A stretch of 64,000 nt of DNA from Asticcacaulis machinosus (GTDB lineage Bacteria; Pseudomonadota; Alphaproteobacteria; Caulobacterales; Caulobacteraceae): assembly GCF_028550435.1 (NCBI RefSeq), contig NZ_JAQQKV010000002.1, positions 930,001 through 994,000 of the forward strand. Direction: 5' to 3'. Shown in pieces: positions 13,959 through 35,795 of the stretch. How positions within the stretch are numbered: position 1 is the stretch's first letter; each line of letters opens with the position of its first letter. Below the pieces are notes generated by a model that saw only the letters and a list, made by a program, of their open reading frames with translations, was not told where the DNA came from and did no database searches. A program made the position numbers and the translations under genes.

Positions 13959-14975
13959 TCAGCGCTTAACGTCGAAGCCCTCATCACTGAGGAAAGCGCT
14001 CAGATCAGCCGCGTTCGCCAGGCTGAAATCGCCCGGAATCGCGTGCTTCAGGCAACCGCAAGCGATACCGAGATCAAGCGCGTCCTGATCGGTCTTGCCG
14101 CTTAAAATGCCATGCAGAACACCGGCTGCAAACGCATCGCCACCGCCGATGCGGTCAACGATCCCTGCTATGTCGTAGGTCGTGGTCTCAAGGCTCTCAG
14201 ACCGCGTAAACATCAACCCCGCCAGACGGTTATGATCGACATTGACCTGGGTGCGGCGCGTGGAGATCAGGCGCATCAGATCGGGGAAGGTCGCAAAGGC
14301 ATGGTCGGCGGCGGCCCGGTTGCGGGCCAATGAGCCGTCTTCGCCGTCGAATTTCGTTTTAAACACCAGTTCAATGTCGCGGTAACCACCGAAAATCAGG
14401 TCAGCATGGGACATCAACTGCTTGATCAGAGTCGGGGCATCGCCGCCCCACGCTTCCCACAGCTTTGGGCGGTAGTTGCAGTCGAACGAGACCTTGACCC
14501 CTAAAGCCTTGGCCGCATTCATACCGGCCAGAGCGGCATCAACACAGTTCTGACCCAGAGCGGCGGTCACGCCGGAGACATGCAGCCATGAGGCGTCCGC
14601 CAGCAGCACCGGCCAGTCCAGCTTTGAAAAATCCGCCGTGGCAAAGGCTGAGCCCGCCCGATCATAAAGAATATCCGACGGGCGGTGAATGGCGCCGGTG
14701 GTCAGGAAATAGAGCCCCATCCGGCCGGGGGCTGTGGTGACATCAGAGGTATCAACACCCCATTTGCGCACTTCCTGAACGGCAGCCAGACCCAGATCGT
14801 TGTCAGGGATGACGCTGATCATCTTGGCTTTGTGGCCAAGGCGTTGCAGGCCCACAGCGACATTGGCTTCAGCGCCACCGATGAAGGGCACCAGTTGCGG
14901 CAAGCCATAAAGCGGATCAACCCCCGTCGTCGTCAGCCGAACCAGCAATTCCCCAAAGCACGCAAAGGCCTTCAT
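13959..14975 (-). CDS. kdgK: 2-keto-3-deoxygluconate kinase (PfkB family)
   Basis: Cytoplasmic sugar kinase that phosphorylates 2-keto-3-deoxygluconate (KDG) to KDPG, the point where both uronate routes of this island meet. The 338 residues show PfkB features: GELLVRLT at the N-terminus, the substrate glycine motif FIGGAEANVAVGLQRLG (31-47) and the C-terminal IGGGDAFAAG with catalytic base Asp 280. The substrate is inferred from similarity to KdgK and from the pectin/uronate genes upstream on the same strand. The aldolase that would follow (Eda/KdgA) is not in the window. Confidence 0.9.
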   Translation of the reverse strand: MKAFACFGELLVRLTTTGVDPLYGLPQLVPFIGGAEANVAVGLQRLGHKAKMISVIPDNDLGLAAVQEVRKWGVDTSDVTTAPGRMGLYFLTTGAIHRPSDILYDRAGSAFATADFSKLDWPVLLADASWLHVSGVTAALGQNCVDAALAGMNAAKALGVKVSFDCNYRPKLWEAWGGDAPTLIKQLMSHADLIFGGYRDIELVFKTKFDGEDGSLARNRAAADHAFATFPDLMRLISTRRTQVNVDHNRLAGLMFTRSESLETTTYDIAGIVDRIGGGDAFAAGVLHGILSGKTDQDALDLGIACGCLKHAIPGDFSLANAADLSAFLSDEGFDVKR

Positions 14976-18178: not shown

Positions 18179-18192
18179 TGACACCGGTGTCA
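18179..18192. promoter_or_regulatory. ACCGGT-centred operator, perfect palindrome
   Basis: TGACACCGGTGTCA, a perfect 14-bp palindrome 105 bases upstream of the TonB receptor start. It is the best copy of the motif found across the island and is probably bound by the LacI-family protein encoded at 30514-31617. Confidence 0.75.
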
Positions 18193-18208
18193 TTTGAGTT
18201 TGATGTTA

Positions 18209-18222
18209 TGACACCGGTGGCA
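18209..18222. promoter_or_regulatory. ACCGGT-centred operator, second copy
   Basis: TGACACCGGTGGCA, 13 of 14 bases equal to the site at 18179. Centres of the two sites are exactly 30 bp apart, close to three turns of DNA, so two dimers could bind on nearly the same face. Confidence 0.7.
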
Positions 18223-18311
18223 TATGGTACGCATAGATGATTTAATAAAACAAGTATGGAAATGACGTTGTTGTCAAAAGTGGCAATTCTGCCATATTTT
18301 TGGGTGTCCAG

Positions 18312-18348
18312 ATGCCGCAAAAGCGGCATTTTCAGCCGCTTTTGGCAT
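18312..18348. terminator. Hairpin at the end of the ABC/glycosidase operon
   Basis: ATGCCGCAAAAGCGGC (18312-18327) pairs with GCCGCTTTTGGCAT (18335-18348), with a two-base bulge. It lies 23 bases after the stop of the hydratase gene, the last gene of the operon. A T-run is lacking, so it may be a processing hairpin instead of a classical terminator. Confidence 0.55.
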
Positions 18349-18370
18349 AGGTTTCGCTTTTATGGGTAAA

Positions 18371-19216
18371 TCAAGTCAGCTCTGAGTTGCCAGATTCAAG
18401 GCGGTAGGTTTGCAATTTTAACTCAATCTGAGACAGATTTGGGCTGTCGAACTTGACCGTCGAAGATTGTCCGATCAGGATATCATGAATACCAGTGGTC
18501 GCCCCCGATGAGATGAGCTGACCTTTGCGCAATGGTTTTCCACGACGGGCCAGATGCCCGGCCAGCCAGCCGATGGCTTTGAGCGGGCCGCCCGGCATGG
18601 TGAACAGGCCGCCCTGACCCACCACGTGTCCGTCAATCTCAGTGGTGGCGCGAAACGCCTTCACGGCATTTTCATCCAGATCGCCGACCGTAGACGTCTC
18701 GTCAAAGGCCATCAGTTGCGGTCCCAAAATCAGGCCGAAATTATTGCCGAAGTCCGAGGCCACGACGGTAGGGCCCAACTTGTTTATGGTCGGTAAGGGC
18801 GATCCGGCCATCTCAATGCCTGCGAACATGGCGTCGATTAAATTGAGCGCTTCCGCCTCAGTGTAATCGGTCTTGGCCACCGGCGCGTCCTTACCGATAC
18901 GGAAGATGTATTCGGCTTCAACGGCGGCAAAGCCATGCTCAAACACCGGCACATGAACGGGTTCGCCACTATAGAGCTTGAACATCGGTTGAAAGATCGG
19001 GCCGGCCAGACGCTCGGTGCCGTGTTCGGCCTGTTTTTCCGGCGCCAGACGGCCGATTTTCCAGCCAATAACCGGCTTGTCCCACAGGGCAATGGCCTGA
19101 TCCTGAATGAAGTAGGATTCATCCAGAACCGAAGGGATCGTGCCGGGATAGTCGTTGAGCGCCGTGGCGGCACGGCGCGCACTTACGAAGTTTTTGGCAA
19201 TATCTTTTAACGGCAT
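18371..19216 (-). CDS. 2-keto-4-pentenoate hydratase family protein
   Basis: A 281-residue member of the fumarylacetoacetase-fold hydratase/decarboxylase family (MhpD-like). Seen: VEAEYIF (about 99-105) with the acidic residues that bind the metal, a conserved VASDFGNN-like segment, the GGPLKAIGWLAGHL region and the C-terminal ISSGATTGIHD. Family members hydrate or cleave 2-keto acids from ring-cleavage or sugar-acid pathways. Here it is the last gene of a pectin operon and its ATG overlaps the GH105 stop by one base (TGATG), so its substrate is probably a keto acid derived from pectin, such as a rhamnose-derived diketo acid, or an aromatic substituent. The exact reaction is unknown. Confidence 0.75.
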   Translation of the reverse strand: MPLKDIAKNFVSARRAATALNDYPGTIPSVLDESYFIQDQAIALWDKPVIGWKIGRLAPEKQAEHGTERLAGPIFQPMFKLYSGEPVHVPVFEHGFAAVEAEYIFRIGKDAPVAKTDYTEAEALNLIDAMFAGIEMAGSPLPTINKLGPTVVASDFGNNFGLILGPQLMAFDETSTVGDLDENAVKAFRATTEIDGHVVGQGGLFTMPGGPLKAIGWLAGHLARRGKPLRKGQLISSGATTGIHDILIGQSSTVKFDSPNLSQIELKLQTYRLESGNSELT

Positions 19217-20391
19217 CAGACTTTTCCTTCATTCAGGCCTTCACTCAGGCTCCACATCAGCGCCCCGACACCCTTGGGGTCATTAGGGGTGATTTTTTCA
19301 GACATATAATACTCAAACGTACCGTCGCGATAGGGCACATTGCCAAGTCCCGCCACGCCGCAAATGCCATTCAGCGTTGACGGCGTTAGGAAGCGGTCAA
19401 TGGCGGCCTGAAGGCTGTCGCGTCCGGCTTTTTGTTCAGTTTCGCCCACAATACCCAGCCGTGCCGCCTTCATCAAACCATAAGCGATCATCAGGGAGGC
19501 CGAGGCTTCTTCGTAATTGCCCGCACGATCACCCTGATCTACCACCTGATACCACAGGCCATTATCAGAGCGAAACTTCAGCAGACCGTTTAGGGTGTTG
19601 CGGGTAATGCGGGCCAATTCGGCGCGTAAAGCGTCATCAAAGCCGTTTGAATGTTCATAGGATTCAACCAGAGCCCCGATCCACCAGCCCATAGATCGTC
19701 CCCAGACATTGGGCGACAGACCCGTCTCCGGATTCGACCAGCGCTCCGCGCGGCTTTCGTCCCAGCCGTGGAAATAAAGGCCGTTATCTTTTTTCAGCAG
19801 GCGATCGACACTGGAAAACTGCTGCACGCTGTCGGCAAACAAAGCTTCATTGCCGGTGATACGGGCATAGGCGACCTGAAACGGCTGGGCCATGAACAGG
19901 CCGTCGAGCCATACTTGATGCGGGTAAATCTGCTTATGCCAGTAGTTGCCGGACTGGGTGCGTGGATGGTTTTTCAACTGGGCGAACTGGATATCCATCG
20001 CCTTACGGAAACGATCCTCACCGGTGATTTCATAGAGCGGAAACAGAATCTTGCCGCCATTAATGTGGTCGATATTATACTCGGTCGGCAAGAAGGTCGG
20101 CATGGAACCATCAGGCAAGACACGGGTTTCCATCTCCTTCAGGATATAGTCCAGAAAGGCTTCATCACCGGTCGTCTGATAAAGGTCGAGCGCGCCTTTC
20201 CAGACGATGCCGTCTTCATAGTTCCAGAACGGACGGTACGGTTCCCAGCTTTTGAAGTAGTTGCCGATAAACACGGGCACCTGTGCGCCGAATGCCGACA
20301 GGGTGCGGATAGTGGCGTTGCTGATCGTGAAGGCCCGACGCATAGGTGCGTCAATGACATCAACGGGGATGTTGTGGGATAGATTCATCAT
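19216..20391 (-). CDS. GH105 unsaturated rhamnogalacturonyl/glucuronyl hydrolase
   Basis: Glycoside hydrolase of 391 residues related to YteR. It would remove the 4,5-unsaturated galacturonate left at the non-reducing end of pectic fragments by lyases. The alpha/alpha toroid repeats are visible and QVWLDGLFMAQPF (159-171) provides the likely catalytic Asp 163. There is no signal peptide, so it should act in the cytoplasm after ABC import. Its ATG overlaps the GH28 stop (ATGA). The product rearranges to 5-keto-4-deoxyuronate, the substrate of KduI at 28019. GH88 is the close alternative family. Confidence 0.85.
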   Translation of the reverse strand: MMNLSHNIPVDVIDAPMRRAFTISNATIRTLSAFGAQVPVFIGNYFKSWEPYRPFWNYEDGIVWKGALDLYQTTGDEAFLDYILKEMETRVLPDGSMPTFLPTEYNIDHINGGKILFPLYEITGEDRFRKAMDIQFAQLKNHPRTQSGNYWHKQIYPHQVWLDGLFMAQPFQVAYARITGNEALFADSVQQFSSVDRLLKKDNGLYFHGWDESRAERWSNPETGLSPNVWGRSMGWWIGALVESYEHSNGFDDALRAELARITRNTLNGLLKFRSDNGLWYQVVDQGDRAGNYEEASASLMIAYGLMKAARLGIVGETEQKAGRDSLQAAIDRFLTPSTLNGICGVAGLGNVPYRDGTFEYYMSEKITPNDPKGVGALMWSLSEGLNEGKV

Positions 20392-21947
20392 AGGACGTTT
20401 TCCAGTTCGATGTCCTGCCCCAGATAGCCTTTGAGGGACAGGTTACTGAGGCGGACATTGCGGGCATTGCAGATGTAGAGCCCTTTGCGGGCGACGGCGG
20501 GAATCGAGGCGGCCATGTCGGGGAAGCCGGCATCAGCGGTCTCGGCAAAACTAACCCTGAAATCGTCGATATGGATGCCGTCGATCGGCTGTTCCGGTAG
20601 GCCGAGCAGATAGGCGGCCGCGTGGCGGGTCTGGTCGCAATGGATGTGCGTCAGAGTGATCTCACCGATAAAGGGCGTGCGGTCATCAACAGGCAATGGA
20701 CTGCGGTTACCGACATAATCGGTCTTGCCGTCCGGATCGCACCAGTAAAAGCTGTTGATCACAAAGGCTGTGCCGACATTTTTCATGCGGATATTGTCAA
20801 AGCGGATATGGGCTGCCACGGCATCCTTACCGCGCCCGCGCCGGGTTTTGATCCGCAGGCCGCGATCCGTACCGGTAAACAGGCAATCGCGCACCGTGAC
20901 ATCATAAATGCCTGAGGCCATTTCAGATCCAACCACGACCGCGCCGTGACCATCCTGCATCCAGCAGTTGGAAATCGTCACCCGCCGCGTCGGGCGAAGC
21001 GCTTTGCGGGTCATGCTGATCTTGCCGGATTTCAGCGCGATGCAGTCGTCCCCAACCGTGAAATGCACGCCGCATATTTTAACGTCGGTGCAGCTTTCGG
21101 GGTTGAGGCCATCGGTATTGGGACTGTCGGACGGGGCCTTGATCTTAAGGTTGGTGAAGGTCAGCCAGCGACTGTTCAGGGGGTGGATCGTCCATGACGG
21201 ACTGTTGGCGACCGTGAGGCCCTCACAGGTGATTTTCTCACTGTCGATGATCGAGATCAGCCGCGGCCGCCAGGCGGTGTGATCACCGTCGCCAAACGGC
21301 ACCTTGGGGCGCGACCACCAGGTGTCGAAACCGGCGCGGCCATCGATTTCACCCTCGCCATAGACCATGACATTGCGGGCGGCGATGATATTGATCAAAG
21401 CGGCATGACAATTGAGCGCCTCACCTTCCCATGACCCCAGCCAGACCTTTTCCCGCCCTTCGTCGTCATAGAGTATGCCGGGCAGGATCGGCCATCCCGT
21501 GAGGTCGCGCCGCCCCAACAGGCGGGCGTCTTTAGCGATCTCAAGCGCCATATCACTTTTCAGAAACAGCGGTCCGCTGACATAATTACCATCTGACAGC
21601 CGCACCCGGCCATCACTGGGGCAGGCGGAAATGGCAGCCTGCAAGGCGGCGGTGTCGTCAGCGATACCATCGCCTCTGGCCCCAAAGGCGCGTGGATCAA
21701 GCACGGCCTTGCACCGGACGGTTCGGGCGACCAGTTCTTCGCCGTTCACCGTCACCTTATAGAGCGTATCCGGCGTGAGGCCCGTCAGTGTAAACACATT
21801 CAGATCGGTGGTGAGTTTAAGCACGCCATCGACGTAGACCTTACGCGCCGCGTCCGCCCGGTAGATGCTGCCATCGCTGATTTCAAAGCTAAGCGACGTC
21901 GGCAAATCAGCAATCAGGTTCAGGCGCGGTATCTCATCTCGTGGCAT
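20388..21947 (-). CDS. GH28 polygalacturonase, no signal peptide
   Basis: Glycoside hydrolase of 519 residues. Residues 1-80 look like a fibronectin-III-like N-terminal module; the rest is a right-handed beta-helix with all GH28 signatures: NTDG (277-280), GDD (299-301), GHG (333-335) and RIK (365-367). The catalytic aspartates are 279, 300 and 301. It cleaves alpha-1,4-galacturonan. No export signal is seen at the chosen start, and none can be found upstream because the solute-binding gene ends two bases before. It therefore most likely trims imported oligogalacturonides in the cytoplasm to free galacturonate. Confidence 0.9.
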   Translation of the reverse strand: MPRDEIPRLNLIADLPTSLSFEISDGSIYRADAARKVYVDGVLKLTTDLNVFTLTGLTPDTLYKVTVNGEELVARTVRCKAVLDPRAFGARGDGIADDTAALQAAISACPSDGRVRLSDGNYVSGPLFLKSDMALEIAKDARLLGRRDLTGWPILPGILYDDEGREKVWLGSWEGEALNCHAALINIIAARNVMVYGEGEIDGRAGFDTWWSRPKVPFGDGDHTAWRPRLISIIDSEKITCEGLTVANSPSWTIHPLNSRWLTFTNLKIKAPSDSPNTDGLNPESCTDVKICGVHFTVGDDCIALKSGKISMTRKALRPTRRVTISNCWMQDGHGAVVVGSEMASGIYDVTVRDCLFTGTDRGLRIKTRRGRGKDAVAAHIRFDNIRMKNVGTAFVINSFYWCDPDGKTDYVGNRSPLPVDDRTPFIGEITLTHIHCDQTRHAAAYLLGLPEQPIDGIHIDDFRVSFAETADAGFPDMAASIPAVARKGLYICNARNVRLSNLSLKGYLGQDIELENVL

Positions 21948-21949
21948 GG

Positions 21950-23278
21950 TTAGCGGATGACCCGGTGCAGTATGGCGTTGATGTCATCGTAAAGCGCATC
22001 GCCCGCCTGTTCGAGTGTGATCTTGCCGTATCCAAACGATTCCAGAATATCCTGAAAACCGTCACGGACGCGCGGATGCTCGAAATAGGGGCTTTCCAGC
22101 ACATTTATGGGCAGACGGGCCAGCATGTCTTCGCTGTCTTGCTGAAGCTTGCCGATCAGACCATCCTCACGCAGGATAGCTTGCGCGGCTTTGGAGACCG
22201 GCACGCCGCGCTTGGTTTCCATCGCCCGCACCCCTTCCGGGTCGTTGAGCAGGAAGTTGATCAGCATGGCCGATTCCCTCGGGTGCTGGGATTTGGCGTT
22301 GACAGCGAACATCATCGACGGCCGGTACAGTAACCCGGCATCGGTCGCCCCTGGCCGCATGGGATAGGGCGCCAGCGCCACTTCCTGCTTTCCGGCCAGA
22401 GTGTCGGTGTATTTCTCAATGGCACTGTTCCATTGATAGGTGCCGGCAAATTCGCCGTTGATCCACGGTCGCATTTCCTGCTGCGGCAGATAGCCGTAAG
22501 AGGCCCGCACCTGCGCGCTGGGCCAGACATGATCGCGGATCATCTTCGCATAAAACCCGGCATATTCGTGCATATCGGCGCGGGTGCAGTTAAGTGATTT
22601 GGTCTCAGAATTGACCAGCGCCTTACCCGTCTTTTGCACAATGTATGACCGCGCCAGAGCAATAAAGTCCTGAAACAGGCCATCGAGCGGATAATAGGCA
22701 TCGCCGAGCTTTGCCTTGAACTGCGGCCCGCGCGCGAAGAGCGCGTCCCAGGTATCGGGCAGGCTTAAGCCCGCCTTATCATAGGTGGTTTTGTTGAGGT
22801 ACATCAGGCGGGCAGCATTGGAAATGGCCACCGCATTGAGCTTGCCCTTCGTTGTCCCCATCGACAGGGTGCGGGCATCAAACTGGCTGAAATCGATCTC
22901 GTTCTTATACTGATTGAGGTCTGTGAAACCTTCGCCATCGCGCGAAAACAGGGTCTGCCAGTACCAGTTGATCTGCATGACATCCGGGGCGGTCTCGCCG
23001 GCGATCTGGGTCGTCAGGCGCTCCAGATGGCCGGTAAAGCCGGTATATTCGCCGCGCACCCGAATGTGAGGGTGGCGTTTTTCAAACCGTTGCAGGGCAT
23101 TGAGCGTGGCTTTGTGCGCCGATGTGCCGCCCCACCAACTCATCCGCAGGGTGATAGCCCCGCCGTCTGACGATGACGTTGTGCTCTGTGAGCAGGCTGA
23201 CAGGCCGGTGAGTGCGGCGGCCCCCAGTAACACCTTGCGGCGGTGGAGCCTTAGGGCGTCAAGAGTTGTATGCGACAT
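21950..23278 (-). CDS. Sugar ABC transporter solute-binding lipoprotein
   Basis: Periplasmic binding protein of 442 residues, family 1 extracellular solute-binding (MalE/UgpB-like). The N-terminus has twin arginines (RRKVLLG, 13-19) and a lipobox LSAC (Cys 29), so it is probably a Tat- or Sec-exported lipoprotein. Mature-domain features typical of the family are LRMSWWGG and the APDVMQINWY segment. It lies directly before the GH28 gene and three bases after its permease gene. The ligand is inferred to be a pectic oligosaccharide from the operon content. Confidence 0.9.
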   Translation of the reverse strand: MSHTTLDALRLHRRKVLLGAAALTGLSACSQSTTSSSDGGAITLRMSWWGGTSAHKATLNALQRFEKRHPHIRVRGEYTGFTGHLERLTTQIAGETAPDVMQINWYWQTLFSRDGEGFTDLNQYKNEIDFSQFDARTLSMGTTKGKLNAVAISNAARLMYLNKTTYDKAGLSLPDTWDALFARGPQFKAKLGDAYYPLDGLFQDFIALARSYIVQKTGKALVNSETKSLNCTRADMHEYAGFYAKMIRDHVWPSAQVRASYGYLPQQEMRPWINGEFAGTYQWNSAIEKYTDTLAGKQEVALAPYPMRPGATDAGLLYRPSMMFAVNAKSQHPRESAMLINFLLNDPEGVRAMETKRGVPVSKAAQAILREDGLIGKLQQDSEDMLARLPINVLESPYFEHPRVRDGFQDILESFGYGKITLEQAGDALYDDINAILHRVIR

Positions 23279-23281
23279 AGC

Positions 23282-24157
23282 TTACCCCTTCACCGCGCCG
23301 GAGGTGATGCCCTCAACAAAGTATTTCTGGGCGAGGAAGAACAGGATTAGGGACGGTGCCAGGGCAATGGTCGACATGGCCAGAATCTCGTTCCATGAGG
23401 TCGCTTCGGTCACGTCGATCGACATTTTGAGCGCCAGCGCCACCGGATATTTCTCGACTGACGACAGATAGATCAGGGGCTGGAGAAAATCATTCATCGA
23501 CCACATGAACTGGAACAGGGCGACTGAGATAATGGCGGGCAGGATCACCGGTGCGACCACCAGCGTCAGCACCTGAAAACTGTTACAGCCATCCATGACG
23601 GCGGCCTCTTCCATTTCCATAGGCAGGGAGCGCATGAACTGGATGATCATGAAGACGAAGAAGCCTTCAACCGCAAAGGCCTGCGGGGCGATCAGCGGCA
23701 GATAGGTATCAAGCCAGCCAAATTCACGGAACATCAGATATTGCGGGATCAGCAGCACCGATTTTGGCAAAAGCACGGTCGCCATAAGCAGCGCAAACAA
23801 CAGATTGCGACCCGGAATGGCAAAACGGGCAAACCCATAGGCGACGATGACCGAAGAGATGACCGTTACGATCACCTTGGGCACCACGATCTTCATGGTG
23901 TTGATCAGATAGGTCGCAAAGGTATATTCGGTCGAGGTCTCCCAACCCTTTTTAAAGCCATTCAGCGTCGGCTCTTTCGGGATAAAACCGATTGAGGAAA
24001 AAATTTCCTGATTGTTCTTGAACGATCCGCCGATCATCCAGAACAACGGATAAAGCATCATAAAACCGATAGCGATCAGAATGCCATAACGCAGGAAGGC
24101 ATTGATGACTGGCAGGTGTTTACGCCATCCGGCGTCAGCGGGTGCGGACACGCTCAT
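23282..24157 (-). CDS. Carbohydrate ABC transporter permease (MalG type)
   Basis: Inner-membrane permease of 291 residues with six hydrophobic segments and the EAA loop EEAAVMDGCNSF (near 190) that contacts the ATPase. It ends in the ITSGAVKG-like tail common to MalG/LacG homologues. Its ATG overlaps the stop of the partner permease gene by four bases. It forms the channel with the MalF-type protein at 24154-25059. Confidence 0.93.
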   Translation of the reverse strand: MSVSAPADAGWRKHLPVINAFLRYGILIAIGFMMLYPLFWMIGGSFKNNQEIFSSIGFIPKEPTLNGFKKGWETSTEYTFATYLINTMKIVVPKVIVTVISSVIVAYGFARFAIPGRNLLFALLMATVLLPKSVLLIPQYLMFREFGWLDTYLPLIAPQAFAVEGFFVFMIIQFMRSLPMEMEEAAVMDGCNSFQVLTLVVAPVILPAIISVALFQFMWSMNDFLQPLIYLSSVEKYPVALALKMSIDVTEATSWNEILAMSTIALAPSLILFFLAQKYFVEGITSGAVKG

Positions 24158-25059
24158 TTCTTGTCTCCCCGATTCTTATCACTCTCTTGGGCATAGAAGA
24201 CCCAGTGCTTCTGCGACCAGAAGGCAATGGCGGTGAAGATGGCGATGATGACGAACAGCACCCACGACAGGGCCGAGGAATAGCCGAGATTGAAGTATTT
24301 GAACCCTTCCTCATAGATCATCAGCGGCAGCAGATAGCTGGATTTGAGCGGGCCGCCGCCGGTAATAATGTAGGGGCCGTTAAACTCCTGAAACGCCTGC
24401 ACGATCTGCATGATGAAGTTGAAGAACAGCACCGGGGTCAAAAGCGGTAGGGTGATCATCCAGAACTGACGCATCCGTGAGGCGCCGTCGAGGTCTGCGG
24501 CTTCATAAAGGTCTTCGGGGATGGCCTTGAGGCCCGCCAGAAACACCACCATCGCTGAGCCGAACTGCCACAGGCGCAAAAGGATGATCGAGAACATGGC
24601 GGTGTTGGGTTCCCCCAGCCAGTTGACGCCGGTAATGCCGATCATCTCCAAGGCTTGATTAATCAGGCCGTCGCCCGCGAACACAAAGCGCCAGACAATG
24701 GCGATGGCGACCGAACCGCCAAGGATCGACGGCAGGTAATAGGCCGTGCGGAAAAAGCCGATGGCGCGCAGTTTGAAGTTCAGCACCACCGCAATAAACA
24801 GCGCAAAAGCCAGCTTCAGCGGCACGGTGATGAACACGTAGAAAAACGTGACACCGAGCGATTTCTGAAACGTCGCGTCGCGGCCCATTTCGGTATAGTT
24901 CTGAAGGCCGGTAAAATTGGCGCTACCCAACTGATCCTGCAATTGCGCGTCGGTCAGGCTGAGGACGAATGAGGCCACAAACGGAAAGGCTGTAAACAGC
25001 AAAAAGCCGATGACGAACGGAGCGACATAGAGGGCACCGATTTTCTTGTCATTGAACAT
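24154..25059 (-). CDS. Carbohydrate ABC transporter permease (MalF type)
   Basis: Inner-membrane permease of 301 residues with six hydrophobic segments and the EAA motif YEAADLDGASRMRQF. The ATG at 25059 is chosen because it has a GAGG ribosome-binding site and follows the ATPase stop by seven bases; the longer open frame to 25125 would run into the ATPase gene. It pairs with the MalG-type permease. Confidence 0.93.
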   Translation of the reverse strand: MFNDKKIGALYVAPFVIGFLLFTAFPFVASFVLSLTDAQLQDQLGSANFTGLQNYTEMGRDATFQKSLGVTFFYVFITVPLKLAFALFIAVVLNFKLRAIGFFRTAYYLPSILGGSVAIAIVWRFVFAGDGLINQALEMIGITGVNWLGEPNTAMFSIILLRLWQFGSAMVVFLAGLKAIPEDLYEAADLDGASRMRQFWMITLPLLTPVLFFNFIMQIVQAFQEFNGPYIITGGGPLKSSYLLPLMIYEEGFKYFNLGYSSALSWVLFVIIAIFTAIAFWSQKHWVFYAQESDKNRGDKK

Positions 25060-25066
25060 GGCGGCC

Positions 25067-26191
25067 TCACACCACGTCGGGGTTGAAATCGAGCGCATGT
25101 CCAAGCGCCAGACCATCCGCGTCAAAGATATGAGCGCGCTTAAGGTCGATGGTCAGTGCCACTTCCTGATGGTTATGAACGGCCGTTTCGCCGTCCAGCT
25201 TGATGATGATCGGCTCGCACTCAAATTCTTTCAGGGCGACATAGGCGAAGGTCTCACCGCCCAAACGCTCAATCAGGGTGACATAGCCGGTCAGGTGCGC
25301 CTCTGCGCCTGGGGCGGCGAGGCTCAAAGATTCCGGGCGCAGGCCCAATTGGATTTTATCGGATGTGGGTTTCGAGACATCCTTGCGCGGAATGATCAGC
25401 GAGCCTTGTGCCGTCTGGATACGCACACTGTCGGAGGTCGCCCCGGCGTAGGTTGCTGGCAGGATATTCATCCGCGGCGAGCCGATAAATCCGGCCACAA
25501 ACAAATTGGCCGGATGGCGATACAGCGTCATCGGTGATCCGACCTGCTCAACCAGACCGGCGCGCAGCACAACAATCTTGTCGGCCAAGGTCATGGCCTC
25601 AACCTGATCGTGGGTCACATAGACCGAGGTCGCACCCAGCTTGCGGTGCAGACGGGCGATCTCAACGCGCATCTGACCGCGCAAAGAGGCATCGAGATTG
25701 GACAGCGGTTCATCGAACAAAAACACATCCGGTTCACGCACAATGGCGCGACCGATGGCGACGCGTTGTCTTTGCCCGCCGGATAGCGCCTTGGGGCGGC
25801 GTTGCAGCAGATGGTCCAGTTGCAGAATCTCAGCAACCTCATGAACCTTGGCGCGGATTTCGGCCTTGGGGCGGCCCTGAATTTTGAGGGCAAAGGCAAT
25901 GTTGTCTTCGACCGTCATGTGCGGATAAAGGGCGTAGGACTGGAACACCATCGCCACGCCGCGCTTGGACGGATGAGCATAGGTCACGTCCTTATCGGCG
26001 ATAACAATTTCACCCGAAGTTGGCGTCTCTAACCCTGCGATCAGGCGCAGCAATGTGGATTTGCCGCACCCTGATGGCCCGACAAAGACGACCAGTTCGC
26101 CCTTTTTGACATCAAGGCTTACGCCCTTGATGACATCGGTGCCGTTAAACGATTTGGTGACGGCGCTAAGCCTTACGCTGCTTGAAGTCAC
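25067..26191 (-). CDS. ABC transporter ATP-binding protein (UgpC/MsmX type)
   Basis: ATPase of 374 residues that powers the pectic-oligosaccharide importer. Seen: Walker [10 protein letters not shown] (38-46), Q-loop Gln 84, signature LSGGQ (136-140), Walker B FLFDEP (157-162), a His switch in VTHDQ, and a C-terminal TOBE-type regulatory region (about 240-374). It is the first gene of a seven-gene operon: ATPase, two permeases, binding protein, GH28, GH105 and hydratase. An ACCGGT operator lies 51 bases upstream of its start. Confidence 0.93.
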   Translation of the reverse strand: MTSSSVRLSAVTKSFNGTDVIKGVSLDVKKGELVVFVGPSGCGKSTLLRLIAGLETPTSGEIVIADKDVTYAHPSKRGVAMVFQSYALYPHMTVEDNIAFALKIQGRPKAEIRAKVHEVAEILQLDHLLQRRPKALSGGQRQRVAIGRAIVREPDVFLFDEPLSNLDASLRGQMRVEIARLHRKLGATSVYVTHDQVEAMTLADKIVVLRAGLVEQVGSPMTLYRHPANLFVAGFIGSPRMNILPATYAGATSDSVRIQTAQGSLIIPRKDVSKPTSDKIQLGLRPESLSLAAPGAEAHLTGYVTLIERLGGETFAYVALKEFECEPIIIKLDGETAVHNHQEVALTIDLKRAHIFDADGLALGHALDFNPDVV

Positions 26192-26241
26192 ATTTCCCCG
26201 CTGTACATTTTGTTATTTTTGCTGTTGAGAACCTTAGTATA

Positions 26242-26255
26242 GGAAACCGGTGTCA
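26242..26255. promoter_or_regulatory. ACCGGT-centred operator upstream of ABC operon
   Basis: GGAAACCGGTGTCA shares the ACCGGTGTCA half with the perfect site at 18179. It is 51 bases from the ATPase start and 115 bases from the divergent isomerase gene, so it could control one or both. Confidence 0.65.
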
Positions 26256-26370
26256 TTTTCAACGCCGATTATGAATTAAGCTGACATTTGGGCTTATGCG
26301 GGCTTGCTGAGACGGCCTTCGGCGGCTATTTGAGGCTGCAACTCATCACAACTATGAAAAAGGATATGCC

Positions 26371-27009
26371 ATGAAGATTGCTTTGATCAACGAGAACAGC
26401 CAGGCCGCCAAGAACGGCATCATTTTCGACGCGCTTAAGACGGTTGCCGAACCGCTTGGTCACACGGTTTTTAACTATGGCATGTACGGCGCCGAAGATA
26501 AGGCCTCACTGACCTACGTCATGAACGGCCTGCTGGCGGGTATCCTGCTGAACTCAAAGGCGGCTGATTTCGTCGTCACCGGTTGCGGCACCGGCATGGG
26601 CGCCATGCTGGCCTGTAACTCGATGCCGGGCGTTTTCTGCGGTCTGGTGATCGACCCGACCGACGCCTTCCTGTTTGGCCAGATCAATGACGGCAACGCC
26701 ATTTCCATGCCTTACGCCAAGGGCTTTGGCTGGGCGGCCGAACTGAACCTGCAGGACGTGTACCGTAAGCTGTTCGACGGTGAGCGCGGTCTGGGCTACC
26801 CGAAAGAGCGCGCCGAAATCATGGCCAAGAACCGTGGCATCCTGAAAGACCTCAAGGCCGCGTCGTGTAAGGACATGCTGACCGTCCTCAAGACCGTTGA
26901 TCAGGATCTGCTGAAGGCCGCGGTCGCCGGTGAGAAGTTCTCGGAATACTTCTTTGCCAATGCGCAGGACGAAGAGATCAAGGCTTACATCAAAGGTCTT
27001 GTCGGTTAA
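26371..27009 (+). CDS. RpiB/LacA/LacB-family isomerase, probable uronate isomerase
   Basis: Cytoplasmic isomerase of 212 residues. The family loop VVTGCGTGMGAMLACN (68-83) carries the nucleophilic Cys 72 that matches the catalytic Cys of RpiB. It is longer than RpiB (about 150) because of a C-terminal extension. It is divergent from the pectin ABC operon, so ribose 5-phosphate is an unlikely substrate. Streptococcal DhuI, an RpiB-type enzyme, isomerises 4-deoxy-L-threo-5-hexosulose uronate; by analogy this could be a second enzyme beside KduI. That is inference. A good AAGGA ribosome-binding site precedes the ATG. Confidence 0.75.
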   Translation: MKIALINENSQAAKNGIIFDALKTVAEPLGHTVFNYGMYGAEDKASLTYVMNGLLAGILLNSKAADFVVTGCGTGMGAMLACNSMPGVFCGLVIDPTDAFLFGQINDGNAISMPYAKGFGWAAELNLQDVYRKLFDGERGLGYPKERAEIMAKNRGILKDLKAASCKDMLTVLKTVDQDLLKAAVAGEKFSEYFFANAQDEEIKAYIKGLVG

Positions 27010-27035
27010 GCGATTATCGCCTTAGCGCACAAAAA

Positions 27036-27065
27036 ACCCCTTCCGTGTAAACGGAAGGGGTTTTC
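27036..27065. terminator. Bidirectional Rho-independent terminator
   Basis: A perfect 11-bp stem, ACCCCTTCCGT (27036-27046) and ACGGAAGGGGT (27051-27061), has loop GTAA, with A-run on the left and T-run on the right. It lies between the convergent isomerase and kduD genes and can end both. Confidence 0.93.
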
Positions 27066-27088
27066 TTTTGAGCTAAATTCAGGCTGGG

Positions 27089-27844
27089 TTAGCGGGCCAA
27101 CCAACCTCCGTCTACCGGGATGACCGAGCCGTTGACGTAATCCGAGGCGCGTGAGGCCAGGAACACAGCGGTGCCGCCGAGGTCGGCCGGATCACCCCAG
27201 CGGGCGGCCGGAATACGGTCGAGGATCGACTTGTTGCGGGCTTCGTCGGCGCGGATCTGAGCCGTGTTGTCAGTTGACATATAACCCGGTGCGATGGCGT
27301 TGATATTGACGCCCTTGGCGGCCCATTCGTTGGCCAGCAAGCGGGTGATGCCGGCAATGCCCGACTTTGACGCCGTATAGGACGGGACGCGGATGCCGCC
27401 CTGGAACGACAGCATCGAAGCGATGTTGATGATCTTGCCGTAGCCGTTGGCGATGAAGTGCTTGCCCGCGGCCTGCGACATGAAGAAGGCCGACTTGATG
27501 TTGACGTTCATGACGTCGTCCCAGTCTTTTTCCGAGAAATCAACCGCGTCAGCGCGGCGGATCAGGCCGGCATTGTTGACGAGGATATCGAGACCGCCGA
27601 GGCCTTCGAGGGTTTCCTTGATGATGCGGTCAACGGGCTCAATTGAGATCAGGTTGGCGTCGATATTGATGAATTTACGGCCTAGTGCCTTGATCTTTTC
27701 ACCGGTTTCATCGGCGGGCACGATGCCGGCGGCGGCGATGTCGGCACCGGCTTCAGCCAGTGCAATGGCGATGCCTTGGCCCAGGCCCGTATTGGCACCG
27801 GTGACCAGAGCAACCTTGCCGGTCAGATCGAATGGATGTGTCAT
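27089..27844 (-). CDS. kduD: 2-keto-3-deoxygluconate 5-dehydrogenase (SDR) KduD
   Basis: Short-chain dehydrogenase of 251 residues that reduces 2,5-diketo-3-deoxygluconate to KDG in the cytoplasm. Seen: nucleotide-binding TGANTGLG (15-22), NNAG (90-93) and the catalytic Ser 143, Tyr 156 and Lys 160 (YTASK), ending in VDGGWLAR, typical of KduD. An AAGGA site precedes the ATG. kduI lies upstream on the same strand, giving the usual pair of steps after GH105. Confidence 0.92.
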   Translation of the reverse strand: MTHPFDLTGKVALVTGANTGLGQGIAIALAEAGADIAAAGIVPADETGEKIKALGRKFINIDANLISIEPVDRIIKETLEGLGGLDILVNNAGLIRRADAVDFSEKDWDDVMNVNIKSAFFMSQAAGKHFIANGYGKIINIASMLSFQGGIRVPSYTASKSGIAGITRLLANEWAAKGVNINAIAPGYMSTDNTAQIRADEARNKSILDRIPAARWGDPADLGGTAVFLASRASDYVNGSVIPVDGGWLAR

Positions 27845-27970
27845 GATAGAGTCCTTTTTGCTTTCGGCCCTGATGTTAAAAGCGAGTTATATCGATCCCG
27901 CTCACTTAATGAATTATGTCAAAAATTTCTGAAGGGCCGCCCCGATGAAATTTTTGTCCTCACTGATTGC

Positions 27971-28014
27971 GAGGATAAGTACACTGAGGCCGTAAGGCCG
28001 AGGGACTTCTCCTC
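27971..28014. repeat. 3' hairpin element after kduI
   Basis: Arms GAGGATAAGT (27971-27980) and ACTTCTCCTC (28005-28014) enclose an inner GGCC/GGCC pair. It contains AAGTACACTGAG and GGGACTT, as does the hairpin at 51010-51045 after polA. It begins four bases after the kduI stop on the coding strand. Confidence 0.55.
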
Positions 28015-28018
28015 GATG

Positions 28019-28885
28019 TTATTTAAGTTGACAGATATCGAGTACGTTCATGTCGGTGTAGTCGAGATTTTCCCCGCCCATCGCCCAGATGAAGGTGTAG
28101 TTCGACGTGCCCGCGCCCATGTGGATCGACCACGGTGGTGACACGACGGCTTCGTCATTTTGCATGATGATGTGACGGCAGTTATCCGGCTCACCCATGA
28201 AGTGGAAGACGCGGTCATTGTCGCCAAGGTTATAGTAGAAATAAACCTCTGAGCGGCGGTCATGCAGGTGCGGCGGCATGGTATTCCACACCGAACCGGG
28301 GGCCAGTTCGGTCAGGCCGAGCAGAAGCTGGCACGACTTGGCGGTGGTGGGCACGATATACTGATAGATGACGCGCTGGTTCGATTGCTCCAGCGAACCG
28401 CGCTCCAGCGGAACCGCCTTATCGATCGAAATCTTGACGGTCTCATAGCGCTGATGGGCAGGCGTCGAGGTCAGATAATATTTAGCCGGGTTTGCCGCAT
28501 TATCCGATTTAAACAGAACCTCAGCCGTGCCCATCGGCACATAAAGACCGTCCTTTTGGGCCAGCGTATAGTCAACGCCGTCGATAGTGACGACCCCAGC
28601 GCCGGAGCCGACATTGATGATGCCCAGTTCGCGCCGCTCCAGAAACGGATGACCGGCGGCCGACGCCGGTTCGGTCTGATCCGGCAGTTTGACAACCTCA
28701 TTCACCGGGGCCGCGCCACCAATGACGAAGCGTTCAAAATGCGTGTAATTCAGGACGATCTCATCGGCTTTGAACAGGCCGCCCATGTGGTACTTATCGC
28801 GCAAATCCTGATTGCCGACATTGGTCATCATGTCAGGGTGAGTGGCGTACAAGGTCTTGGAATAGATCGAATGTTTATCGCACAT
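28019..28885 (-). CDS. kduI: 5-keto-4-deoxyuronate isomerase KduI
   Basis: Cytoplasmic cupin isomerase of 288 residues. It converts 5-keto-4-deoxyuronate (from unsaturated galacturonate) to 2,5-diketo-3-deoxygluconate. The zinc ligands of the family are all present: His 206 and His 208 in PPHLHDRR, Glu 213, and His 255 in SIHMG. Length is normal for KduI. It lies between uxaC and kduD on the same strand and is probably co-transcribed with uxaC (75-base gap). Confidence 0.95.
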
Positions 28886-28960
28886 GGCAAGCCCTCAAAG
28901 CGGGGAACAGATGCTTCGATCAATCAAATCGAAGCATCTTAAATCACGTTTGATCCACCC

Positions 28961-30373
28961 TTAAAGCTTATAGGCCGCTTTGGGAAGATTATATGTGAGA
29001 TCTTTAATCGTCTGCGCCGCCTCATCAAGTTCCAGCCGGTGCTCGGCCACCAGTCGCGCCAGGAAATTGGCATCGATACGGCGGGCGACATCGTGACGGG
29101 CCGGGATCGACAGGAAGGCGCGGGTGTCATCATTGAAGCCGACGGTGTTGTAGAAGCCCGCGGTCTCCGTCACCTGCTCGCGGAAGCGGGTCATGCCTTC
29201 GGGCGAGTCGTGGAACCACCAGGAGGGGCCGAGCTTAAGGATCGGATAGTGACCGGCCAGAGGCGCCAGTTCGCGCGAATAACTGGTTTCATCAAGCGTA
29301 AACAGAATGACCGTCAGGTCTTTTTCATTGCCAAACGCGTCCAGCAAGGGTTTCAGATCGTTGACATAGTTGGTCGGCAGCGGGATATCGCAGCCCTTAT
29401 CGCGGCCATAGGTCTCAAACACTTTGAGGTTATGGTTGCGGAAGGCGCCGGGGTGAATCTGCATGGTCAGGCCGTCATCCAGCGACATGCGCGCCATTTC
29501 GGTCAGCATCTGAGCCCGGAACAACTCGGCATCATCAAGGCTGAACCCGCCACGAATGATGCGGTTAAACAGGGCCTCTGCGTCAACAGGCGACAGATTG
29601 GCGGTCTTTGCTGTCGGGTGACCGTGGTCGGTCGAGGTCGCACCCATAGTCATGAAAAAGTCGCGGCGGTTGCGGTGGGCGCGCAGATAGCCTTTCCAGC
29701 TATAGACATCCTCACCGGACAGCTCACCAAAAATTTTCAGCTTGGCCTTGAAGTCTTCATGCTCAGCATCGATCACCGGGTCGGGGCGATAGGCGGTGAC
29801 GACGCGGCCGTTCCAGCCGGTGTCCTTGATTTTCTGGTGATGCTCCAGTGTATCGGTCGGTGATTCCGTTGTCGCCAGCAGTTCGATGTTGAAGCGCTCA
29901 AACAGGGCGCGCGGAAGGTAAGCGTCGGACGCCAGTAACTCACCGATACGGTCGAAATAGAAATCCGCCGTCTCTTCGCTCAGCTTGACCTCAAAGCCCA
30001 TGATCTGGTCGAACACATAGCCCATCCACATCGAGGTTGGCGTACCACGAAACAGGTGCTGGTTTTTGGCAAAAATTTTCCAGGCTTCACGCGCATCGGC
30101 AGGGCTGGGGCCGGCCTTGGAGCCGACGCCGACATCGTCCATAGCAATGCCCTGCGAATAGAGCATGCGATAGATATAATGATCAGGTGCCAGAAATAGC
30201 TGGGTAGCATTGCCGAAAGACTCGTTATCTGCAAACCACTGCGGATCAGTATGGCCGTGAGGGCTGAGGATCGGGAAATCTTTGACGAGTGCGTACAGTT
30301 CGCGGGCAATGGCGCGTTGGGACGGATCGCTGGAAAAGAGGCGATCTTCATTCAGTTTCAAGGCTTCGGGCAT
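28961..30373 (-). CDS. uxaC: Uronate isomerase UxaC
   Basis: Amidohydrolase-fold isomerase of 470 residues that converts galacturonate to tagaturonate (and glucuronate to fructuronate). The metal site HGH appears in SPHGHTDP (His 39, His 41), and the family segments NIELLATTE and TLDETSYSREL are present. Length is standard. It opens the galacturonate branch fed by the GH28 enzyme. An ACCGGT operator lies 76 bases upstream of its start, in the gap after the LacI gene. Confidence 0.95.
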   Translation of the reverse strand: MPEALKLNEDRLFSSDPSQRAIARELYALVKDFPILSPHGHTDPQWFADNESFGNATQLFLAPDHYIYRMLYSQGIAMDDVGVGSKAGPSPADAREAWKIFAKNQHLFRGTPTSMWMGYVFDQIMGFEVKLSEETADFYFDRIGELLASDAYLPRALFERFNIELLATTESPTDTLEHHQKIKDTGWNGRVVTAYRPDPVIDAEHEDFKAKLKIFGELSGEDVYSWKGYLRAHRNRRDFFMTMGATSTDHGHPTAKTANLSPVDAEALFNRIIRGGFSLDDAELFRAQMLTEMARMSLDDGLTMQIHPGAFRNHNLKVFETYGRDKGCDIPLPTNYVNDLKPLLDAFGNEKDLTVILFTLDETSYSRELAPLAGHYPILKLGPSWWFHDSPEGMTRFREQVTETAGFYNTVGFNDDTRAFLSIPARHDVARRIDANFLARLVAEHRLELDEAAQTIKDLTYNLPKAAYKL

Positions 30374-30448
30374 GTATTCGTTACCAATAATTATGAAGCG
30401 CCGCGCCTTTTCGTGGGGCGGTCAATTCAGCTACTCCCTGCCTCCATA

Positions 30449-30462
30449 GGTAACCGGTGTCA
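30449..30462. promoter_or_regulatory. ACCGGT-centred operator upstream of uxaC
   Basis: GGTAACCGGTGTCA. It is the exact reverse complement of the site at 31778-31791 and shares ACCGGTGTCA with the others. It lies 76 bases before the uxaC ATG. Confidence 0.72.
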
Positions 30463-30513
30463 TCGCATTTGTCCAGAGACTATTTGCGACGGTATCTCAG
30501 GCAATGGCCGGAA

Positions 30514-31617
30514 TTAGGGTTTAAAGTTTTTTGGAACGGGGGCGGTGGAATCGCGCACTACCAAAGCCGCATCAAAAACCGTGGTGTGTTTGCGGTGATC
30601 TTCCTGATCGATAAGAGTTTCTGCCGCCATGCGGCCCATATCACGGATCGGCAGGCGCACGGTCGTCAGTGCCGGATAGACGCGCGCGGCCAGCGGACTG
30701 TCATCAAAGCCGATAATGCTGAGATCGCCGGGTACTGACAGGCCCATTTGCAAGGCGACCTTATAGACGCCGATGGCCATTTCATCGTTGGAGGCAAAAA
30801 TAGCGGTGGGCCGGTCAGGATGGCTTAGGATTTTCTGACCCGCCTCGAAACCGGACTCAAAGGAGTAGGCCCCTTCGGCGGTAATTTCAGGGTCAATATC
30901 GAGTCCGTGGGCCTTAAGGCCTTCGGCAAAGCCCTGACGGCGCTCCTTGGCGGAAGCATAGGTGTGCGGGCCTTCGATAAAGCCGATGCGGCGATGGCCG
31001 AGGGAGACCAGATGGTCGGCGGCCTGCTGGCAGCCCATGCGGTCGCGCGACACGACCTGAGAGGTCTTGATCGGCGGGGAATTATCGTCACCATGTCGGG
31101 CGGTGATGCGCACGAACGGCACCGCCAGTTCTTCTAACACCTGGATCAGTTGCCGGTTTTCCGCGATCGGCGGCAGCAGGATCACACCTGACAGGCGTTG
31201 CAGTTCCACAAAGTCGCGGATTTCTTCAAGGAAGCTGTCTGAGGTTTTATCGCAGGGGTGGACCACCAGTTCGATGCCGGAGCCGCGCACCTTATCCAGA
31301 ATACCCATCTGCATGTTGACGATATACTGGGCATTAGGGTTGTCGTAGATCAGCCCCAGCAGAAACGACCGGCGAAACGCCAGTCCGCGCGCCTGCGGAT
31401 CGGGCCGGAAGCCAATGCGGGCGATGATAGCGTTGACGGCTTCGCGGGTTTCCTCACGCACTGACGGTGAGTTATTGATGATCCGGGAGACGGTTTTTTT
31501 GGATACCCGCGCCAGAGCCGCGACATCATTGATGGTCGCTTTTTTGCGCCGCTTCAGGAACTCTTCGACAGGGTCTGCGGCGGATTTAACAGGCTGAGTT
31601 TGGGGGGGTAAAGTCAT
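30514..31617 (-). CDS. LacI-family transcriptional regulator of the uronate island
   Basis: DNA-binding repressor of 367 residues. After a 26-residue leader comes the LacI helix-turn-helix ATINDVAALARVSKKTVSR (27-45) and the hinge region with ARGLAFRR (76-83), then a periplasmic-binding-protein-like effector domain. LacI members bind palindromes with a central CG; the island carries such motifs centred on ACCGGT. Its position between uxaC and uxaA and the operator 161 bases upstream of its own start suggest autoregulation and control of the whole island. The inducer is probably a uronate or KDG-type intermediate. A run of seven C lies in codons 4-6. Confidence 0.9.
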   Translation of the reverse strand: MTLPPQTQPVKSAADPVEEFLKRRKKATINDVAALARVSKKTVSRIINNSPSVREETREAVNAIIARIGFRPDPQARGLAFRRSFLLGLIYDNPNAQYIVNMQMGILDKVRGSGIELVVHPCDKTSDSFLEEIRDFVELQRLSGVILLPPIAENRQLIQVLEELAVPFVRITARHGDDNSPPIKTSQVVSRDRMGCQQAADHLVSLGHRRIGFIEGPHTYASAKERRQGFAEGLKAHGLDIDPEITAEGAYSFESGFEAGQKILSHPDRPTAIFASNDEMAIGVYKVALQMGLSVPGDLSIIGFDDSPLAARVYPALTTVRLPIRDMGRMAAETLIDQEDHRKHTTVFDAALVVRDSTAPVPKNFKP

Positions 31618-31777
31618 GGGCTCCCGGTCGTTCGTTTAAGTTATGTGTAAAGTGCGTCGGTTATGATGACAAGATGCACGAAAGCCGTGGGAGGGGTGGC
31701 CAGATCGGCATGTATATGTTTTAGCGGACGGAGTTCGGGTGTAAGATGGGCTTGCTATCGGGTCATAAACAGATTAA

Positions 31778-31791
31778 TGACACCGGTTACC
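31778..31791. promoter_or_regulatory. ACCGGT-centred operator in the lacI-uxaA divergent region
   Basis: TGACACCGGTTACC. It is 86 bases upstream of uxaA and 161 bases upstream of the regulator gene, so it may control both directions. It is identical, inverted, to the site before uxaC. Confidence 0.72.
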
Positions 31792-34921: not shown

Positions 34922-34982
34922 ACTTGCCACCATAGGGCGGTATCGGTTAGGTCAGGATAAACCTGAAAAAGAGACCGTCCCC

Positions 34983-35795
34983 ATGCCAAATCCTGCCTTT
35001 AGCGTACCCGCTGAACCTGTACCTGCTGATGTGATTGCCCTGTCGGAAGGGGCGGCCAATGTGCTGTCGGGTCAATGGCCGAACCGTCAGATCGAAGCCG
35101 TGACGCGGCTGGAACTGCATGGCTATTACACAAAAGCGGCACGGGCGCGGGCGCTGGTCTATGCTGGGGGCGGCTATCACCGCCTGATGCACGACAAGGA
35201 AGGGGTTGAGGTCGCGTTATGGCTTAACAGCCTTGGGATCGATGCCTATATCATGGCCCACCGCCTGCCCGGTCAAGGCAATCACGATAAGGATATGGCG
35301 CTGAAAGACGGCCTGACCTGTCTTGATTATTTGGCGCAGTTCAAGGATTTGCCGCTGCTGCATGTGGGCCTGTCGTCGGGCGGGCATCTGGCCGGTGTTA
35401 TGGCCTGTCAGGATCATGCGCTGAAAGCCGCCGGCGCGTTGATTGCCTATGCGCCGATCAATGCCAACCACAAAGATTATAAATTCCCGGCGGGAAAGCC
35501 TGATTATCCGCCGGTCGAAAAGCAGGCTTTCTATAATGACTGGCCGATCGGGATTGCGACTGAGCCCCACGGCGTGCCGGACTGTCCGGTCTTTCTGGCT
35601 TACGGCCTTTATGATGAGATCGTGCCGGTCGATCATGCGCTCAACATGATCAAGGCCGGTCAGGTCTTAAAACGCGATGTCGAAGCCCATATTTTCGATC
35701 AGGCCCCGCACGGCTTTGCGCTTCGTGAAACAATCGGCACACATGCCTACTGGCCGGAACTGGCGGCCCGCTGGTTCGACCGGGTTTTGGCTTAG
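34983..35795 (+). CDS. Alpha/beta hydrolase, probable carbohydrate esterase
   Basis: A 270-residue alpha/beta hydrolase without signal peptide. Seen: oxyanion-hole region YAGGGYHR (about 58-65), nucleophile elbow GLSSGGH (GxSxG), an Asp in YDEIVPVDH and the catalytic His in QAPHGF. This fits acetylesterase-like enzymes. As the third gene of the uxaA operon it may remove acetyl groups from imported pectic fragments; this is inference. The ATG at 34983 is chosen because the longer frame from 34884 overlaps the reductase gene in another frame. Its stop overlaps the stop of the convergent carboxylesterase by four bases. Confidence 0.8.
   Translation: MPNPAFSVPAEPVPADVIALSEGAANVLSGQWPNRQIEAVTRLELHGYYTKAARARALVYAGGGYHRLMHDKEGVEVALWLNSLGIDAYIMAHRLPGQGNHDKDMALKDGLTCLDYLAQFKDLPLLHVGLSSGGHLAGVMACQDHALKAAGALIAYAPINANHKDYKFPAGKPDYPPVEKQAFYNDWPIGIATEPHGVPDCPVFLAYGLYDEIVPVDHALNMIKAGQVLKRDVEAHIFDQAPHGFALRETIGTHAYWPELAARWFDRVLA

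Follow-up and report, generated by a model that had tools for sequence, protein, structure and literature searches.

Which protein reads a palindrome centred on ACCGGT that recurs between genes for pectin and hexuronate breakdown in Asticcacaulis machinosus? The window analyzed here, a stretch of 64,000 nucleotides from contig NZ_JAQQKV010000002.1, contains five such sites and, among the genes that surround them, one for a LacI-family regulator (Table 1). An earlier note on this DNA had combined sites and regulator into one regulon and had offered the link between protein and motif as an inference. By comparison, this link is now strongly supported: the motif is conserved beside relatives of the regulator, co-occurs with them at the level of whole genomes and varies together with their recognition helix. 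The five sites are very probably a shared switch that is read by the LacI repressor encoded within the island.

Operator sites in the window and next to LacI relatives

All five sites were found where the earlier note had placed them, the first as a perfect palindrome and all of them outside open reading frames (ORFs) of at least 150 amino acids, and the site at 31778 is indeed the exact reverse complement of that at 30449. They are located upstream of the gene for a TonB-dependent receptor, a probable operon for an ABC transporter and glycosidases, uxaC, and within the divergent lacI-uxaA promoter region, with distances of 50-134 bp to the listed start codons (104 and 134 bp for the receptor, 50 bp for the ABC ATPase, 75 bp for uxaC and 76 bp for uxaA, the listed start of which is TTG). 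When the window was scanned for TGACACCGGTGTCA with up to three mismatches, 11 places were retrieved, compared with a mean of 2.14 and a maximum of 6 in 100 shuffles, and a 10-mer with up to one mismatch gave 19 matches where 3.16 were expected. A scan of the whole genome (3.77 Mb), as the note had suggested, spoke for the exact pattern GGWAACCGGTGTCA, with five copies, three of them in the window, and none for the reversed pattern, whereas loose matches alone are no evidence, because 42 places with up to two mismatches to TGACACCGGTGTCA stand against 16 for a backwards control.

The regulator combines an N-terminal helix-turn-helix domain (PF00356, E 1.9e-16) with a periplasmic-binding-like effector domain (PF13377, E 3e-43), as expected for the LacI family. 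Even palindromic operators with a central CG are a further feature of this family (Ravcheev et al. 2014, PMC4052901), and the sites in the window are of this kind and lie upstream of catabolic genes. As in a LacI-type hexuronate/pectin regulon, they precede genes for a hexuronate isomerase, an altronate dehydratase and uptake proteins. The closest named relatives of the regulator, with 95-96% identity, stem from an Asticcacaulis metagenome-assembled genome (MAG) and from A. endophyticus.

Searching named genomes with the LacI protein from the window yielded 395 confirmed relatives, the best of which provided 79 distinct loci. Counting GGWAACCGGTGTCA in either direction or TGACACCGGTGTCA as exact operators, 203 copies were present in 70 of these loci, and 300 column-permuted motifs gave a mean of 0.04 and a maximum of 3 over the same DNA. 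The operators precede the same kinds of genes in Asticcacaulis, Hyphomonadaceae, Sphingomonadales, Nitrospirillum and a Steroidobacteraceae MAG. Genes within 500 bp of a site were assigned solely by similarity to the proteins of the window. Most frequent among the operators is the asymmetric TGACACCGGTTWCC rather than the perfect palindrome, and 174 of 188 such sites read towards their assigned gene, namely g281 (45), rpiB (34), uxaA (29, between lacI and the divergent uxaA, as operator 5), the TonB receptor gene (23), uxaC (22, as operator 4), kduI (11), the ATPase gene (5) and lacI (5). An exact operator is absent from nine loci: L039-L041, L043, L045 and L046 encode a LacI paralogue with none of the window's other genes recognized nearby, L020 has one-mismatch sites only, and L068 and L090 encode a different helix.

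The same picture emerged from 61 genomes (that of A. machinosus and 60 relatives), where 34 of the 36 that encode a close LacI (E below about 1e-90) contain GGWAACCGGTGTCA, the exceptions being G042 and G053, compared with 2 of the 25 others (Fisher p 2e-12); the pattern lies within -400 to +1500 bp of 36 of the 41 lacI copies. Operator 1 has a perfect copy in 22 of 25 genomes of the genus, its own included (flanking genes checked in part), and operator 3 is equally placed before the ATPase gene in L015, L016, L017, L018 and L025. Paired sites such as operators 1 and 2 also precede TonB receptors in several relatives, with differing spacing. One fixed spacing for double sites was considered and discarded: spacings below 200 bp vary between 22 and 153 bp in the 79 loci, with 30 bp in the window, and therefore there is no single helical phase. 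Sphingomonadales TonB-receptor promoters (L042, L048, L052, L055-L057, L061) contain a pair of operators that face each other at a distance of 67-69 or 91-92 bp; a TTGACAGA box precedes the first operator of the pair.

Covariation of recognition helix and operator

The recognition helix of the window regulator reads VS-KK-TVSR, and regulators are classed here by the residues at AA-15 and AA-16; the nine other LacI-type matches in the same genome have other residues at these positions. Among 50 aligned regulators (that of the window and 49 relatives), all but L068 (VR) and L090 (IR), both from Xanthomonadales-type MAGs, share this helix, and these two have TGCCAGCGCTGGCA upstream of lacI. A comparison of 158 distinct segments of the DNA-binding region over 62 columns, with operators sought across whole loci, resulted in a map in which KK goes with TGACA-CCGG, IK and MK with TGACA-GCGC, KR with TGCCA-CCGG, and VR and IR with TGCCA-GCGC. 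An exact KK-type operator accompanies 79 of the 95 KK segments and a one-mismatch version two more; operators of the GCGC type were found for 18 of 27 IK and 2 of 3 MK segments, TGCCACCGGTGGCA for 5 of 6 KR segments and TGCCAGCGCTGGCA for the single VR and the single IR segment. Save for the single IR locus, no segment carries an exact operator of another class.

The KR class stems from a phylum search with the IR protein that matched 37 of 398 genomes, from which 30 loci were taken, six of them KR and five IK. TGCCACCGGTGGCA was predicted for this class after one KR locus; the short flanks of the other five contained none, and their 20-kb regions later agreed in four of the five cases. The neighbours of the KR operators are again uxa, kdu and GH28 genes.

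In this branch, AA-15 goes with the operator centre (K: CCGG; I, M or V: GCGC) and AA-16 with base 5 (K: A; R: C). In the column comparison, the operator centre can be read from AA-15 and the NT-5 type from AA-16; columns 14 and 34 (alignment numbering) also separate the classes, two of which have a single member there. In a tree of 60 proteins, KK forms one group (100/99) and KR clusters with VR/IR (94/87, not starred); the IK proteins branch outside both (100/99) and do not form a single group. Provided that KR and VR/IR do belong together, AA-15 must have changed at least twice and AA-16 at least once, and therefore independent contrasts are few. We lean slightly towards the view that AA-15, setting NT-2, and AA-16, setting NT-5, are near-independent switches, that whole pectin regulons have moved from one operator type to another, and that single residues separate the hexuronate regulon from a GluR-like Entner-Doudoroff regulon in one cell.

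The latter regulon would belong to an IK paralogue in A. machinosus itself (L194, C2:15000-34900). Its locus has the order zwf-pgl-edd-glk, LacI, GH3, and glk is followed by a gap of about 900 bp. GluR of Caulobacteraceae, a LacI-family protein like the window regulator, is described as encoded immediately downstream of the zwf-pgl-edd-glk operon, controls Entner-Doudoroff genes and has a motif of 20 bp (Ravcheev et al. 2014, PMC4052901). L194 is its likely counterpart, whereas the KK regulator of the window, encoded beside uxaC and uxaA, is a different paralogue. At the L194 locus, zwf is preceded by TGACAGCGCTGTCA at 66 bp and the GH3 gene at about 400 bp; this sequence departs from the perfect palindrome of the window at NT-2 of both halves. 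TGACARCGYTGTCA occurs at five places in the genome, two of them at this locus. Between two sugar regulons that feed the Entner-Doudoroff pathway, the difference therefore appears to amount to one base pair in each half-site and one residue of the helix, and it may keep them apart.

A role for the same residues was described by Camas, Alm and Poyatos (2010, PMC2978694), who found that AA-15 and AA-16 go with NT-5 and NT-4 and linked NT-2 to AA-55, AA-15 and AA-5 by mutual information; where it treats this point, their paper leaves the NT-5/NT-4/NT-2 map open. AA-15 and AA-16 are operator-linked here as well, and the two-residue pattern sharpens, rather than founds, their code.

Proposed repression and its alternatives

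With a probability of about 0.87, we propose that the LacI protein is a dedicated pectin/hexuronate regulator that represses its targets until an intermediate of the pathway releases it. As a dimer, it would bind 14-bp operators, the asymmetric TGACACCGGTTWCC usually facing the regulated gene and the perfect TGACACCGGTGTCA at the TonB receptor, where, as a guess, binding may be tighter than at the asymmetric sites. As long as inducer is absent, the protein would cover the promoter; release would be brought about most likely by 2-keto-3-deoxygluconate (KDG) or a hexuronate. In 44 of the 174 sites of the relatives, a T before the operator's TGACA completes a -35-like TTGACA, and among the others TTG is found 13 bases upstream in 37 sites and 7 bases upstream in 34, so that the sites overlap likely promoter elements. 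One fixed promoter geometry was dismissed: TTG is over-represented at several offsets (-1, -13, -7 and -33), and no single arrangement fits all. The window itself offers a weak promoter-like match starting at 31777 (ATGACA), in a promoter scan barely above chance (11 vs. 7.9).

This overlap, with TTGACA and TTG placed as described, argues against the same LacI acting as an activator, or as activator or repressor depending on the site, and so does PtxS, a repressor with a sister operator (PMC11678583, PMC5902321, PMC3402500). An asymmetric operator that mostly points the same way would be suited to contact with RNA polymerase, however, and dual action has been predicted for the LacI-family protein PckR (Ravcheev et al. 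2014, PMC4052901); on balance, we consider activation unlikely. A different regulator, encoded elsewhere, could also read the sites and merely count the LacI gene among its targets, in line with exact sites in two genomes without a close LacI (G041 and G043) and with KK proteins that have no site within about 10 kb (L039, L043, L045 and L046, and L148 from the close-LacI genome G053). Since the motif accompanies the LacI gene from genus to genus and varies along with the recognition helix, and since no other DNA-binding regulator is encoded among 20 chosen ORFs between 13959 and 38966, this explanation is very improbable. Chance or a coding effect is effectively refuted for the five sites, which are intergenic and for which shuffles, reversed patterns and permuted motifs gave far fewer matches; single matches in signal-peptide-like codons do occur, at 37331 and in L127.

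Repression by the island's LacI has to be weighed not only against these exceptions but against several others as well. The close-LacI genome G042 (L147) has kept the gene order and has three one-mismatch sites and one exact palindrome. Of the asymmetric sites, 14 of 188 do not read towards an assigned gene: seven point away from a TonB receptor, one away from lacI, and six have no recognized gene. Both GH2 sites outside the island (L143 and L144, see below) point away from their gene. No operator of any class was present in the scanned DNA of 14 of the 95 KK segments, i.e., the five named above, scanned over about 10 kb to either side, L206, scanned over about 5 kb, and L120, L123, L165, L217-L220 and L223 with loci of 4-4.6 kb, nor in that of 9 of 27 IK, 1 of 3 MK and 1 of 6 KR segments; such misses are partly a matter of length, because the loci run from about 4 to 21 kb. 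Furthermore, the single IR locus also carries one TGCCACCGGTGGCA, the IK locus L239 contains a hybrid that is one mismatch away from the KK type, the related genomes are not independent, and in both the KR scan and the 158-segment comparison operator classes were defined after part of the data had been inspected.

Two groups of KK-helix proteins stand apart. The four site-less loci L039, L043, L045 and L046 represent a Nitrospirillum/Azospirillum paralogue, and L217-L220 and L223 represent a second, diverged LacI paralogue in other genomes of the genus, with no operator within about 2 kb.

Genes of the island, further sites and related systems

Table 1. Operator sites and genes of the island; coordinates are those of the window.
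Feature	Coordinates	Strand	Remarks
PfkB-family sugar kinase	13959..14975	-	beside regulated genes in many relatives
TonB-dependent receptor, 953 aa	15213..18074	-	TIGR01782
Operator 1, perfect palindrome TGACACCGGTGTCA	18179..18192		upstream of TonB-dependent receptor
Operator 2, TGACACCGGTGGCA	18209..18222		30 bp from operator 1, start to start
Hydratase-like g281, 281 aa (P0002)	18371-19216	-	first-listed gene of probable operon 18371..26191
GH88 family	19216-20391	-	same probable operon
GH28	20388-21947	-	same probable operon
Solute-binding protein	21950-23278	-	same probable operon
Two permeases	23282-25125	-	same probable operon
MalK-type ATPase	25067-26191	-	same probable operon
Operator 3, GGAAACCGGTGTCA	26242..26255	-	reads TGACACCGGTTTCC towards ABC/glycosidase operon; also before divergent rpiB-like gene
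RpiB/LacAB-like gene with DUF3666	26371..27009	+	NF006753
kduD	27089-27844	-	
kduI	28019-28885	-	
uxaC	28961-30373	-	
Operator 4, GGTAACCGGTGTCA	30449..30462	-	reads TGACACCGGTTACC towards uxaC, kduI and kduD downstream
LacI-family regulator, 367 aa	30514..31617	-	PF00356, PF13377
Operator 5, TGACACCGGTTACC	31778..31791	+	towards uxaA, in lacI-uxaA divergent region
uxaA	31868-33418	+	
Fructuronate/tagaturonate reductase-like dehydrogenase	33482-34921	+	
Esterase-like	34884-35795	+	

Judged by the family names from which pathway roles were taken, the island is a pectin and hexuronate gene set; the 20 ORFs also include a second esterase-like protein, LigB and YceI. Common strand and close spacing suggest the operon listed in Table 1. 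The PfkB-family kinase is, from its context, probably a KDG kinase; the window scan retrieved no operator match near it. The g281 protein has no Pfam match at E 0.001 and is weakly related to 2-keto-4-pentenoate hydratase and 4-oxalocrotonate decarboxylase; because its relatives are so often found under the asymmetric operator, it may represent an uncharacterized step of uronate breakdown.

The earlier note had called the regulon local, but it is not confined to the island and is dispersed, with sites elsewhere in the genome before glycoside hydrolase (GH2) and TonB-receptor genes. Two of these sites concern GH2 genes: TGACACCGGTTACC precedes the likely ATG of one (C3:330761) by 42 bp, and TGACACCGGTTGCC, with one mismatch, the listed start of the other (C1:1151090) by 44 bp. 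TGATACCGGTGTCA, also with one mismatch, is located about 70 bp before a TonB-receptor gene (C1:1473492) that adjoins genes for GH95, pectate lyase, GH43 and pectinesterase. Genomes G010 and G006 have a site before genes for a pectate lyase and an MFS transporter (Pfam on the G010 copy). Near-matches in the A. machinosus genome before genes for an ECF sigma factor, alanine dehydrogenase and PhoX may be due to chance.

Window matches at 26131, 27697, 27793, 38537 and 62076 were rejected as operators, each having three mismatches and lying inside an ORF. A match with one mismatch, GGACACCGGTGTCA (37331-37344), falls into signal-peptide-like codons of a carboxylesterase gene and has counterparts at the equal place in L017, L018, L022, L023 and L025, perfect ones in L022 and L023; it is probably a coding effect rather than an intragenic operator, and the same probably applies to a site with one mismatch (C3:38832) that lies in signal-peptide-like codons of a TonB receptor gene. 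An exact operator in STN-domain codons of another TonB receptor gene (L142 4046-4059, C1:1547745) is found letter-for-letter in four genomes of the genus, and operator and coding effect are not separable there because the protein is conserved.

Among known systems, PtxS of Pseudomonas, a 2-ketogluconate repressor with the operator TGAAACCGGTTTCA (PMC11678583, PMC5902321, PMC3402500), resembles the window regulator in its LacI-type family, its 14-bp operator with an ACCGGT centre, its role in sugar-acid catabolism and a site at or near the promoter. Compared by operator description rather than by protein, it differs in the outer bases (TGAAA versus TGACA/GGWAA), the operators here being TGACACCGGTTWCC or TGACACCGGTGTCA and not TGAAACCGGTTTCA, and its targets are kgu and gad genes, those in the window uxa/kdu and pectin genes. 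UxaR, UxuR and KdgR of Bacteroides likewise exert LacI-type control over galacturonate, glucuronate and KDG genes; they are presented as a branch of Bacteroides proteins (PMC4052901) and are likened to the window regulator by description only. LacI-type hexuronate regulons and an ACCGGT-centred 14-bp LacI operator are, going by the passages of these papers that describe them, already known. A literature search that included motif strings revealed no title on the present regulon among the matches listed, and a prior listing in RegPrecise or in supplements is possible.

As far as can be judged from sequence comparison, pectin use in Asticcacaulis-like bacteria now has a well-supported regulator with its operators and targets. 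Related regulons are present in Sphingomonadales, Azospirillaceae and some gammaproteobacteria, and further pectin genes should therefore be findable by their operators. The natural series of KK, IK, KR and VR/IR proteins makes the question left open by Camas et al. (2010), i.e., how AA-15 couples NT-2 to NT-5/NT-4, accessible to testing.

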